Positions 11,149 to 47,404 of a stretch of DNA of 64,000 nt are shown here, in pieces. A program made the translations under genes and the position numbers. Position 1 is the stretch's first letter. Each line of letters begins with the position of its first letter. Source of the DNA: Sphingomicrobium lutaoense (lineage in GTDB: Bacteria > Pseudomonadota > Alphaproteobacteria > Sphingomonadales > Sphingomonadaceae). The DNA lies in NCBI RefSeq assembly GCF_014195685.1, contig NZ_JACICF010000001.1:1187317-1251316 (forward strand). The letters are read 5' to 3'. Below the pieces are notes generated by a model. That model did not search any database and was not told the DNA's origin. It saw only the letters and a list, made by a program, of their open reading frames with translations.

Positions 11149-11503
11149 GGAGGGTTTCTGTTGCCCGGTACCCTCCGGACCGCTGGAATCCCCTTCTGTT
11201 GCCCGGTGGGGTCCGACCGCGCTTAATACCTTGTAACCTTAGTCGTTAGACCGTCGGTTACGCAGCAATAGCGAGCGCCTCGTTATCGTTGGCACTTGTG
11301 AAAATGAGCCGTCGCGGTGGTCTCATACCGATCGGCAACCGAGCCTTTACTGCATTCGTCGATCCTGTTTCGCCCCCATCAGCAACCGCGTCCGGGCCTT
11401 CGAAGGCCTCGCGGCTGGTGGTGGAGGCGCCGGGGTACTGCCCCCCGGGTCCGATATGCCTATTCCACTCGATACTCTACCGACATAGCCGGAAAACCGG
11501 CAC
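11149..11503 (-). ncRNA. ssrA: Transfer-messenger RNA, two-piece circularly permuted (alphaproteobacterial)
   Basis: tmRNA rescues stalled ribosomes and tags the product for proteolysis. On the minus strand the acceptor piece comes first and ends CGCCTCC-A-CCA at 11429-11419. A roughly 41-base spacer follows, then the coding piece begins GGGGGCG at 11377, which pairs with the acceptor strand over 7 bp with a G3-U70 wobble, the alanine identity element. The tag frame at 11293-11258 reads ANDNEALAIAA then TAA. The coding piece ends in two hairpins that share one 14-nt loop (11149-11176 and 11190-11211). Outer ends are approximate. The 5-prime end is inferred from the promoter, giving an acceptor piece of about 85 nt. 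Confidence 0.95.
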
Positions 11504-11508
11504 CTCCA

Positions 11509-11537
11509 GAGATAGGGATTGCGCTTCGTCCGCGCAA
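11509..11537 (-). promoter_or_regulatory. Probable ssrA promoter
   Basis: TTGCGC at 11537-11532 and TATCTC at 11514-11509 with a 17-base spacer. Transcription would start near 11503, which yields a plausible acceptor-piece length. Match to consensus is moderate. Confidence 0.5.
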
Positions 11538-11641
11538 GATGCAGCCTGCATCGTTTCGGGGGGAACCATGCCCTTCGCGTTTCGTTGGAAACGCCTTGAA
11601 GGGGGAGGAAAACTAGCCCCGCTGATACGAGAGGGACTGAA

Positions 11642-18849: not shown

Positions 18850-20076
18850 ATGCGCCATTCGTCCATCAAGCCCGCCGAGGCCGGTCACCCCTATGGCGGG
18901 CTGGGCTTTGCCATCAAGACGATCCTGGTCTTCTGGCTGATCTACCTTGTCACCGTGCTCGTGCGCGCGGGCCTGTCGGGCGATTTTTCGGGCGTCGTGA
19001 TGAACCGCGCGCCGACGATGCTGAGCGGGATGGTGCTGACTTTCGGCATCTATCTCGTCATCCACTCGGTTCGCGAGGGGAGCGGGACGCGCCGTCGGGC
19101 AATCGTCGCGACCATCGCCTCGATCAGCGCGGCGATCCTCCAGGGCATCGCTATCCTGATCGCCGCGCCGCTCAATAGCGACACCAAGGCCGAATATCGG
19201 GTTCAGGCGCGCGAAGGCGCGGTAATCGTGCAGAAGGGGCGCGAGATCAAGATCGAGCGCAACAGCGGCGAGCCGCTCGTATTCACCCTGCCCAAGCTCA
19301 ATGAATTGGGCACCAACGAAAAGGTGCGCTTTGCCGCCGATGCCGCAGTGGTCTGGCTCTTCTTTTTCGCGGCGTGGAGCGCGGTATATATCGCGGGCGT
19401 TTCGGCGGGACAGGTCGCGGTATCGCGGCGCAGGCTCGCCGAAGCCGAAGCCGCCGAGCAGGCCGCGCAGGTCCGCGCGCTGCGTTACCAGGTCAATCCG
19501 CATTTCCTGTTCAACACGCTCAACAGCCTTTCCTCGCTGATCATGAGCGGGCGCCACGAGCGGGCCGAAAGCATGCTGATGGCACTGTCGACCTTCTTCC
19601 GCACTTCGCTGTCGCTCGATCCGGCGGAGAATGTCACGCTGGCCGAGGAAATCGATCTGCAGCGGCTCTATCTCGAAATCGAAAAAGCGCGCTTTCCCGA
19701 GCGGCTGACGGTCGAGATCGAAGTGCCTGACGATGTGGCGAAAACGCGCGTACCCGCGCTCATTCTCCAGCCGATCGTCGAGAATGCGATCAAATATGGC
19801 GTCTCGACCACCCGCGCCAATGTGACGATCAAGATCCATGCCGAGCGGCTGTTCGACGGCCGCGTCCAGATCGACATCGTCAACAGCATGCCCGAAGGCT
19901 GCCAGGTGTCGAGCCGCCCGCGACCGGCGGGCACCGGGACGGGCCTGACCAATGTCTGCCAGCGTCTCGCCGCGCAGTTCGGCAGTGCCGCCGATTGCCG
20001 TTTCGGACCCATCGAAGGCGGCTTCAAGGTATCGCTGGCCGTACCCTCCACAGTCGAAGAGGAAGATGATGACTGA
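18850..20076 (+). CDS. Sensor histidine kinase, LytS/YehU type
   Basis: 408 residues. Four hydrophobic segments (about 20-40, 58-73, 86-107 and 166-190) form the membrane sensor, with a roughly 55-residue extracytoplasmic loop between the third and fourth. The His-kinase domain has the phosphoacceptor in YQVNPHFLFNTLNSL (His218) and the N box LQPIVENAIKYG; the G box reads AGTGTGLTNV. The His-kinase domain type pairs with LytTR regulators, and the next gene, overlapping by 8 bases, is one. Signal sensed is unknown. Confidence 0.9.
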   Translation: MRHSSIKPAEAGHPYGGLGFAIKTILVFWLIYLVTVLVRAGLSGDFSGVVMNRAPTMLSGMVLTFGIYLVIHSVREGSGTRRRAIVATIASISAAILQGIAILIAAPLNSDTKAEYRVQAREGAVIVQKGREIKIERNSGEPLVFTLPKLNELGTNEKVRFAADAAVVWLFFFAAWSAVYIAGVSAGQVAVSRRRLAEAEAAEQAAQVRALRYQVNPHFLFNTLNSLSSLIMSGRHERAESMLMALSTFFRTSLSLDPAENVTLAEEIDLQRLYLEIEKARFPERLTVEIEVPDDVAKTRVPALILQPIVENAIKYGVSTTRANVTIKIHAERLFDGRVQIDIVNSMPEGCQVSSRPRPAGTGTGLTNVCQRLAAQFGSAADCRFGPIEGGFKVSLAVPSTVEEEDDD

Positions 20077-20818
20077 ACCGCTCAAGGTCCTCATTGCCGA
20101 TGACGAACCACTGGCTTCCGAACGGCTCGAAATCCTGCTTGGCCGGATGGACGGCGTGAAGCTGGTCGGGGTCGCCGAGGATGGCGACGAGGCCGTTGCC
20201 AAGACCGCCGAGCTCGAACCCGATGTACTGCTTCTCGACATCGCCATGCCGGGGCCTGACGGGATCGAGGTGGCGCGCAAACTTTCGCGGCAGGACAATG
20301 CCCCCGCGGTCGTCTTCGTCACCGCCTTCGACCAGTTCGCGGTGGCCGCTTTCGAAGTCGCGGCGGTCGATTATCTGATGAAGCCGGTCGAGCAGACCCG
20401 CCTCGATACCGCGATCCAGCGCGCCCGCGCCGCGCTGGCCGCGCGCGAGGAAGAAGGCGACAGTGCCAAGCGCGAAAGCGAAAGCGAATATCTCGAAGAA
20501 TTCTGGGCGTCCGACCTGTCGGGCCTCGTCCGCATCGCGGCCTGCGACATCGAGCGGGTTTCGGCCGAGCGCGACTATATGCGCCTTCATGTCGGCCCCA
20601 AGAGCTGGCTCATCCACCATTCGATGACCGCGCTCGAACAGGGGCTCGATCCCAAGATGTTCGTCCGGCTGCACCGATCGGCGCTGGTCCGGCGCGATTT
20701 CATCGCGGGGTTCGCTCGCAATTCGTCGGGGCGTTGGGTCGCCCGCCTCGCCGACGGCACCGAACAGCCTGTCGGTCGCATCTATTCGGACAAGGTGCGC
20801 GAAATCGCGGCGCGCTGA
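20069..20818 (+). CDS. LytTR family response regulator
   Basis: 249 residues. Receiver domain 1-120 with acidic pocket IADDEP (9-14), phosphoacceptor Asp57 in LLLDIAMPG and the conserved lysine in LMKPVE near 105. After a linker the C-terminal LytTR DNA-binding domain begins near 150 (RIAACDIERVSAERDYMRL) and holds the usual MFVRLHRSALVRRDFI block. It binds imperfect direct repeats upstream of targets; none was identified here. ATG 20069 is preferred over 20066 for its spacing from GAGGAAG. Co-transcribed with the kinase. Confidence 0.9.
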   Translation: MTEPLKVLIADDEPLASERLEILLGRMDGVKLVGVAEDGDEAVAKTAELEPDVLLLDIAMPGPDGIEVARKLSRQDNAPAVVFVTAFDQFAVAAFEVAAVDYLMKPVEQTRLDTAIQRARAALAAREEEGDSAKRESESEYLEEFWASDLSGLVRIAACDIERVSAERDYMRLHVGPKSWLIHHSMTALEQGLDPKMFVRLHRSALVRRDFIAGFARNSSGRWVARLADGTEQPVGRIYSDKVREIAAR

Positions 20819-21683: not shown

Positions 21684-21718
21684 AAAAGAAATGGGGACCA
21701 GCATCGCTGCTGGTCCCC
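21684..21718 (-). terminator. Intrinsic terminator of the candidate structured RNA
   Basis: A perfect 10-bp stem (GGGGACCAGC with GCTGGTCCCC, 6-base loop) followed on the minus strand by ATTTCTTTT. Confidence 0.85.
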
Positions 21719-22180
21719 ACTGCGCCGAGCCGAGGATCTGCCGGTGTTCGCTTCATCATTGTTCCGAAGAACAACATCTCCACGATCCTTGCGCACCCGC
21801 TCAGGCGTCGCTTCCTTCCCGATGTCCTCCCGAAGGAGCCGGTCTTCGCTTCCGACCGCGCCGACATCCCGGAGGATGCCCCGCTTGTCTTCCGCTCCGT
21901 CCGGCCCGAACATCCGAAGACATTCGCAGCCATCAGGTTTTCGGCGGCCCTTCTTGGGCTGGTTTCCTTCGCGCCGCCTGCATCCCCGGAGGAACACCGC
22001 GTTTCGCGTCAGGAAGATCCAGCTCTTCCGGCGCCTCTGACCGGCTGGTCTTTGGCTGCCCCCACCTCCGCTCCCGGAGGAGCAGTGCGGGTTGAATGGC
22101 AACCCAGTCGCCTGCCGGCGGAGATCGGAACTTGCGTTCCCTTCCTTCCCTGGGGAAGGCCGGGCGCTTCGTCCCGATCA
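21684..22180 (-). ncRNA. Candidate structured non-coding RNA with an array of UNCG hairpins
   Basis: No convincing protein is coded here. Reading the minus strand 5 to 3 prime there are hairpins at 22142-22157, 22127-22140 (GGAAC-GCAA-GUUCC, a GNRA loop), 22089-22105, 22068-22085, 22012-22029, 21980-21997, 21943-21979, 21908-21925, 21863-21880, 21827-21838 and 21758-21775, then a terminator. Six of them are closed by C(UUCG)G or C(UCCG)G, and five of these have 7-bp stems. Eight pairs in these stems are G-U on the minus strand, which would be A-C mismatches on the plus strand, so the RNA is minus-sense. It does not show the conserved elements of RNase P RNA, 6S RNA or SRP RNA. Identity unknown; ends approximate. 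Confidence 0.6.
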
Positions 22181-22187
22181 CAGTTTC

Positions 22188-22216
22188 AATATGAGGCGGA
22201 AATCCCTGCGATACAA
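22188..22216 (-). promoter_or_regulatory. Candidate promoter of the structured RNA
   Basis: TTGTAT at 22216-22211, a 17-base spacer, and CATATT at 22193-22188 on the minus strand; start expected near 22180. Partial match to the sigma-70 consensus. Confidence 0.4.
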
Positions 22217-22238: not shown

Positions 22239-22265
22239 TGTGGAAAACGGGGATATCGTGGATAA
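22239..22265 (-). other. Two DnaA-box-like 9-mers
   Basis: TGTGGAAAA at 22239-22247 and CGTGGATAA at 22257-22265 each differ by one base from TGTGGATAA, the reverse of the DnaA box TTATCCACA. They are in the same orientation, 18 bases apart. Confidence 0.4.
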
Positions 22266-47289: not shown

Positions 47290-47298
47290 TTATCCACA
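47290..47298 (+). other. Perfect DnaA-box 9-mer
   Basis: TTATCCACA in the AT-rich gap between the GGDEF/EAL gene and tRNA-Leu, preceded by TTAATTAA. Single site; function unproven. Confidence 0.35.
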
Positions 47299-47318: not shown

Positions 47319-47404
47319 TGGTGCGGACGGCGGGACTTGAACCCGCACTTCCTTTCGGAAAGCCGATTTTAAGTCGGCAGCGTCTACCATTCCGCCACGT
47401 CCGC
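47319..47404 (-). tRNA. tRNA-Leu (anticodon TAA)
   Basis: 86-nt class II tRNA on the minus strand with encoded CCA. The acceptor stem GCGGACG pairs with CGTCCGC; the anticodon stem GCCGA/TCGGC encloses the loop CTTAAAA, anticodon TAA; a long variable arm is present; the T loop TTCAAGT is standard. Confidence 0.96.

Follow-up and report, generated by a model that had tools for sequence, protein, structure and literature searches.

A minus-strand segment at positions 21684-22180 of the window, the 64,000-nucleotide stretch of Sphingomicrobium lutaoense DNA analysed here, was originally predicted to specify a structured RNA rich in UNCG-capped hairpins. The locus raises the question of whether it is a gene for a selected RNA, how widely such an RNA is distributed and what it might do. 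Bacteria have few large structured RNAs, of which several still lack an explanation. The genome sequence analyses described below predict that the segment is almost certainly a free-standing gene for a selected structured RNA, preceded by sequence resembling a promoter and closed by a terminator, and show it to be conserved in relatives, covarying and without an Rfam match at gathering score.

Results

The six UNCG-capped hairpins of the original prediction were all found in place, five with 7-bp stems and one with a 4-bp stem (Table 1); exactly eight of their stem pairs are G-U on the minus strand, corresponding to A-C on the plus strand. A further hairpin closed by a GCAA loop (GGAACGCAAGUUCC) is also present. 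Allowing stems of at least 4 pairs, six UNCG hairpins were counted on the minus strand and none on the plus strand (shuffle mean 0.055, maximum 2 in 1000), and the richest of 1272 window tiles were those over the RNA locus, the next unrelated tile containing 2 hairpins. Folding of positions 21684-22200 placed the minus strand 4.1 s.d. and the plus strand 3.0 s.d. below dinucleotide shuffles, so that fold energy by itself discriminates the strands only modestly. The predicted strand asymmetry is borne out by the hairpin counts here and by a sense-over-antisense bias in homologues, where UNCG/GNRA hairpins numbered 3.72 per RNA in the sense and 0.44 in the antisense orientation, the sense count being the higher in 86 of 93 homologues and the lower in three. 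These 93 RNAs, also used for the word enrichment below, comprise 41 genus RNAs and 52 distant RNAs. The distant set was drawn from 80 loci, of which 4 were too short and 8 lacked a hairpin, and 16 of the remaining 68 were left out (7 genus repeats, 2 from Pseudomonas and 7 with a hairpin unlike a terminator). The closest relative is 85% identical and forms several of the UNCG hairpins from different bases; GUGUUCC-UCCG-GGGAUGC is replaced by GUCUUCC-UCCG-GGAAGGC, and CAUCC-UCCG-GGAUG by CAAUC-UUCG-GAUUG.

The predicted RNA begins with GUGAUCGGG, which is conserved, and finishes with the tail of the terminator; its boundaries are good, as homologue alignments begin at GTGATCGGG (22181) and stop at the terminator (21684); the exact transcription start within this framework we infer. 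The strong intrinsic terminator expected at the end of the RNA corresponds to a hairpin of 14 pairs. Longest closed ORFs on the sense strand ranged from 20 to 172 aa across 41 homologues, a variation in length which argues against a conserved frame, and judged by ORF length no conserved protein frame was found. The idea of a cis-regulatory leader was dropped, since the RNA has a terminator of its own at its end and its neighbours differ among lineages: one type of upstream ORF cluster was present at 29 of 93 loci and another at 38 of 93. The first of these is probably uvrD, as judged from shadow ORFs, and part of the second set contains a cupin-like gene, named by eye. Elsewhere in the window, positions 18850-20818 (plus strand) encode a LytS-like histidine kinase paired with a LytTR response regulator.

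Table 1. Predicted features of the RNA locus, in window coordinates
Feature	Positions	Strand	Remarks
Large structured noncoding RNA, ~498 nt	21684..22181	minus	homology, alignment, covariation, fold z-score -4.1
Three head-to-tail DnaA-box-like 9-mers, TTATCCACG, ATATCCCCG, TTTTCCACA	22239..22265	minus	
Putative -35, TTGTAT	22211..22216	minus	by eye; 17-bp spacer to -10
Putative -10, CATATT	22188..22193	minus	by eye; CA (near-)invariant and T common in 30-locus alignment
5' domain, closed by GUGAUCGG/CCGAUCUC	22115..22181	minus	predicted in alignments
UCCG-capped 7-bp hairpin	22068..22085	minus	not found as such in closest relative
Core strand 1, GGCGCCGGAAGAG	22023..22035	minus	invariant in 13 RNAs; also in some other genera
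UCCG-capped 7-bp hairpin, arm A	21980..21997	minus	re-paired in closest relative
Core strand 2, CCCAAGAAGGGCCGC	21944..21958	minus	CCCAAGAAGGGCCG invariant in 13 RNAs; similar in six non-genus RNAs
UUCG-capped 7-bp hairpin, arm B	21908..21925	minus	re-paired in closest relative
UCCG-capped 7-bp hairpin, arm B	21863..21880	minus	re-paired in closest relative
UUCG-capped 4-bp hairpin, arm B	21827..21838	minus	
Core strand 3, GCGACGCCUGAGC	21799..21811	minus	near-invariant in 29 genus RNAs and six non-genus RNAs
UUCG-capped 7-bp hairpin, arm C	21758..21775	minus	shorter re-paired UUCG hairpin in closest relative
Core strand 4, GGCUCGGCGCAG	21720..21731	minus	near-invariant in 29 genus RNAs
Intrinsic terminator hairpin, 14 pairs	21690..21721	minus	stem pairs covary

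Compensatory changes of the kind that mark a structured noncoding RNA gene were observed in five alignments of homologues, two of them from outside the genus. Among 13 genus RNAs (alignment A2, in which 92.6% of cells pair) two-sided changes were present at 53 of 155 pairs, compared with 28.0 in shuffles and 14-23 in slid versions of the structure; none of 500 shuffles reached 53, although the shuffles ignore relatedness and this figure is hence not a probability. The corresponding values for observed, shuffled and slid changes were 23 of 128 pairs, 10.0 and 1-7 in seven short RNAs (A3), 36 of 128, 20.9 and 6-16 in eight RNAs including the window locus (A4), 38 of 106, 19.4 and 10-18 in 11 Sphingobium-type RNAs outside the genus (A6) and 41 of 107, 19.9 and 7-16 in seven further Sphingomonas-type RNAs outside the genus (A7), the structures being favoured over their slid versions by having been predicted on the same alignments as tested. 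For one covariation measure, further pair types, shuffles reached the observed value in 2 of 500 cases for A4 and 5 of 500 for A6. L012 was omitted from alignment A1, and L001, on account of its length, from A5. Covariation within the RNA requires that the RNA itself be functional. The folds predicted for the A6 and A7 groups are unlike the genus fold.

An Rfam scan returned no family at gathering score at the locus or in 20 homologous loci, in keeping with the original remark that it lacks the hallmark motifs of RNase P, 6S and SRP RNAs. RNase P RNA (RF00010), 6S RNA (RF00013), bacterial small SRP RNA (RF00169) and tmRNA (RF01849) gave no match at the locus and were located elsewhere in the genome. 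The RNase P copy is at G000:C1:742825-743198 (294 bits), the 6S match at G000:C1:986359-986511 (40.7 bits, below the gathering score of 46.4), the SRP RNA scored 67.9 bits and a permuted alphaproteobacterial tmRNA lies at window 11185-11541 on the minus strand (217.6 bits). BjrC68 (RF02353) matched the 3' 69 nt of the RNA, by eye mostly the terminator hairpin, at 28.3 bits (E 3.8e-5), below its gathering score of 39.

The alignments predict a 5' domain followed by a core, GGCGCCGGAAG / CCAAGAAGGGCCG / GACGCCUGAG / CUCGGCGCA, which joins three variable arms not only within the genus but also in certain other lineages, among which are Sphingomonas quercus, S. colocasiae, S. changbaiensis and Sphingobium boeckii. 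Six non-genus core RNAs were picked by exact GGCGCCGGAAG plus a 3' motif (L010 failed), so that strands 1 and 4 are invariant in them by construction. Pairing predicted at the junction consists of GCGCC/GGCGC, GGGCCGC/GCGACGCCU and GAGC/GCUC; these pairs barely vary, and covariation therefore speaks neither for nor against them, just as it is silent on the barely varying closing pairs of the 5' domain. The three arms vary in length and sequence, yet fold closed in the ten RNAs examined, with the reservations that arm B of the window RNA is branched and that arm C of L006 folds differently alone. Arm C of L012 (genome G002) is enlarged by about 180 nt of inserted sequence in which CCTTCGGGCGG-type hairpins recur, a pattern that would fit growth by duplication, and in the longest homologues, L092 and L095 (about 900 nt), near-repeated hairpin modules seen by eye likewise suggest duplication. 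The core was unrecognised in most distant homologues, at least three of the four motifs being found in 12 of 68, 7 of these genus repeats; strands 1, 2 and 3 were present in 10, 3 and 16 of 52 non-genus RNAs, respectively, when one or two mismatches were permitted. Recognition of the distant RNAs as the same RNA thus depends on the promoter, the boxes and the 3' hairpin. Purine content across the 93 RNAs was 58%, with words such as CGGAAG and GGAAAC enriched over shuffles, and GGA-containing words were enriched in the same set, as in the idea of CsrA-type titration.

Homologues were sought in relatives by blastn and with R1, a model covering the 3' 121 positions and partly driven by the terminator hairpin. 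With blastn, the region matched 32 of 61 relatives, all of them among the 37 genomes of the same genus. The RNAs of the genus, 41 in number, measure 366 to 731 nt from GTGATCGGG to the terminator. R1 matched 146 of 296 genomes of the order, comprising 146 of the 213 from the family Sphingomonadaceae and none of the 83 from other families; 67 of the 213 family genomes gave no R1 match, and one genus genome (G002) gave none although its RNA is visible. When the class was searched, 12 of 289 genomes matched. Nine of these belong to other families and scored 31.0-35.2 bits, so that an isolated match of about 35 bits or less is not proof; the highest R1 score outside the family, 35.2 bits, is exceeded in 74 family genomes. 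A DnaA-like box with at most one mismatch was present in the stretch of about 1.5 kb examined for 17 of 20 R1 matches of 32-44 bits, hand-chosen from 19 family genera, and for none of the seven weak R1 matches outside the family, the background being 0.07 boxes per 1.55 kb in genome G018 and 0.21 in flanks of the named loci. The pattern TTATCCACAN{15,45}CTTNGNGCGACTC matched 16 of the 296 order genomes, its reversal matching none. In a set of 84,980 species genomes it matched 89 stretches. Among the 80 of these 89 matches listed, 73 were labelled as sphingomonads, 4 as Pseudomonas/Stutzerimonas, 1 as a Bacteroides MAG and 2 as other MAGs, the Pseudomonas/Stutzerimonas matches resembling by eye dnaA coding sequence. 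Taken from these searches, the RNA appears to be common to the Sphingomonadaceae.

The three 9-mers upstream of the RNA match TTATCCACA at 8, 6 and 8 of nine positions, none perfectly; 9-mers of this kind are the sequence mark of a DnaA-regulated promoter, and their presence makes the region a candidate one. A 9-bp period recurs in homologues, with at least 6 of 9 positions matching in 92 of 109 loci at offset -9 and in 43 at -18, compared with at most 8 of 109 loci at other upstream offsets; the count omitted 12 of the 80 named loci, and since named loci were chosen by exact TTATCCACA the match at offset 0 is by construction. The usual spacing of DnaA boxes is looser than this back-to-back period, and the tightness of the period means that a protein other than DnaA could bind. 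In some genera (L190-L192, L195, L196, L199-L203 and L206) the head-to-tail array gives way to a pair of DnaA-like boxes facing each other at a distance of 25-36 bp, or to one reversed box upstream of the promoter. The sole perfect TTATCCACA in the window is at 47290-47298 (plus strand), and a tRNA gene (47322-47404) lies 24 bases away. A promoter consensus scan found none at the upstream region of the RNA, the putative -35 and -10 elements having been assigned by eye. The motif CTTNGNGCGACTCG occurred once per genome, always at the RNA locus, in 14 of 20 genomes hand-chosen among those with earlier matches, six lacking the exact motif; a same-strand R1 match followed about 200-610 nt downstream in 13, and in the fourteenth (G216) a similar terminator, seen by eye. 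The reversed control gave 12 matches in the same 20 genomes, so that the count of CTTNGNGCGACTCG is not above chance and only the placement of the 14 is telling.

Sites of the GANTC type are frequent in the same promoter region. Within 70 nt after the box, GACTC was present in 31 and GA.TC in 36 of the 41 genus RNAs, the position of GANTC within the promoter spacer being judged by eye. GACTC was absent at this place in the window genome and in nine of the 40 other genus RNAs, and GANTC over the same 70 nt in five of the 41, again including the window genome, whose promoter has a TTG-type -35 and CATATT in place of GANTC. Within the spacer the site can vary at N (GAATC in L011 and L014, GATTC in L054). 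The GANTC of L002 and L045, at position -53, falls beyond the spacer. Distant box-bearing loci carried GANTC in 11 of 17 cases (GACTC 8, GAATC 2, GATTC 1) against an expectation of 0.06, with L192 scored as a miss where the script took a box other than that beside CGACTCG. As GANTC is missing in some homologues, a gate based on it would not be universal. GcrA was found in 39 of 41 genomes, the window genome included. In the window genome (G000:C1:1065807-1066448) and genus genomes GcrA frames are 220-401 aa long, compared with 138-210 aa in other families of the order, and in several genus genomes the GcrA Pfam match is split into two separated parts.

Discussion

The joint explanation that best accommodates these data, a family-wide structured RNA whose transcription is tied to replication and which would bind protein in trans, serving as a scaffold or as a competitor, has about an even chance of being correct as a whole. 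DnaA bound to the tandem 9-mers just upstream of the promoter would tie synthesis of the RNA to replication, and CcrM methylation together with GcrA would act as a gate on the promoter in those lineages whose GANTC lies between -35 and -10. Such coupling of transcription to replication is slightly favoured, given the conserved sites and a parallel in Caulobacter. In Caulobacter, transcripts whose promoters have GANTC in the interval from -10 to -35 switch on at a set time, 40-60 minutes (PMC4287350), and GcrA is proposed there to stimulate sigma-70 at promoters adjoining a methylation site (PMC7987155). The weakest step is the last, in which the RNA would work in trans by binding protein and not as an antisense RNA. 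It is suggested by arms that change sequence while remaining paired, by many rigid UNCG/GNRA caps and by conservation mainly in the junction; as a guess from anatomy, protein binding could equally well prove right or wrong. The broader proposition, that this is a new family of large RNA, (near-)universal in Sphingomonadaceae, with synthesis set directly by DnaA and, in most lineages, by CcrM methylation, and part of a ribonucleoprotein linking replication to the rest of the cell cycle, is tentative and, on present evidence, rather doubtful. The case as a whole is lowered by the reversed CTTNGNGCGACTCG control and the narrow spread of the core, and raised by the covariation outside the genus.

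Three other explanations deserve consideration. The strongest holds that this is a large trans-acting base-pairing sRNA, which would bind mRNAs through a purine-rich stretch left exposed, probably aided by Hfq, its hairpins doing no more than protecting that stretch. A free-standing gene with its own terminator would suit such an RNA, as would the purine content and the enriched words, and cell-cycle noncoding RNAs are known in the class, namely CcnA (PMC8959179) and EcpR1 of Sinorhizobium, a trans-encoded RNA modulating the alpha-rhizobial cell cycle (PMC4414408). However, conservation within the genus falls mostly in the paired junction and not in a free seed, UNCG/GNRA caps close many of the loops, and arm sequences differ between lineages with folding kept, so that base pairing as the main activity seems unlikely, if a serious competitor.

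That the DNA is the functional element and its transcript secondary, the tandem 9-mers forming a DnaA-binding or titration site or an origin, is far less probable. DnaA-binding or titration sites such as datA and DARS are familiar; few stretches of the locus are as well conserved as the 9-mer array, and the preponderance of sphingomonads among the pattern matches listed fits such an element, but covariation internal to the RNA demands a functional RNA. A replication origin was moreover rejected for genome G018, where GC skew sampled in 20 stretches of 20 kb places the locus mid-arm, off the skew minimum. Least credible of all, and very improbable, is a diverged copy of RNase P, 6S, SRP, tmRNA or BjrC68: the sub-threshold BjrC68 match at the 3' end is all that recommends it, and against it stand the copies of the first four encoded elsewhere in the genome (6S below threshold), the gathering score that BjrC68 does not reach and the lack of any threshold match in the homologous loci. 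A selected structured RNA, possibly protein-binding and made in step with replication, hence remains the preferred reading.

No description of such an RNA was found in the open-access literature among the titles and abstract starts of the matches listed, which include papers on Zymomonas sRNAs. It is the family of this RNA that is likely to be new, as large structured RNAs in general are already known. The genus provides an Rfam-unmatched RNA with a core that can be tested, and the sites upstream give the hypothesis of an RNA made in step with replication, in sphingomonads that are common and culturable.

Several known systems invite comparison. BjrC68 (RF02353) likewise ends in a 3' hairpin terminator, but its model is 82 nt long and so without the core and three arms of the window RNA. 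CcnA of Caulobacter is similar as an alphaproteobacterial noncoding RNA tied to the CtrA/GcrA cell-cycle circuit, and differs in that it modulates CtrA and GcrA; the likeness is one of description. EcpR1, described as a small RNA, is likewise similar by description. The GcrA-CcrM promoters of Caulobacter and Brevundimonas (PMC7987155 and PMC4287350) have GANTC in the spacer as do many of the homologues, whereas the window genome's own promoter is without it. The OLE, ROOL, GOLLD and raiA RNAs are likewise long and elaborately folded and were initially of unknown function; from these the window RNA differs in its distribution, in having no threshold match in Rfam and in the DnaA-box-like array that lies upstream of it.
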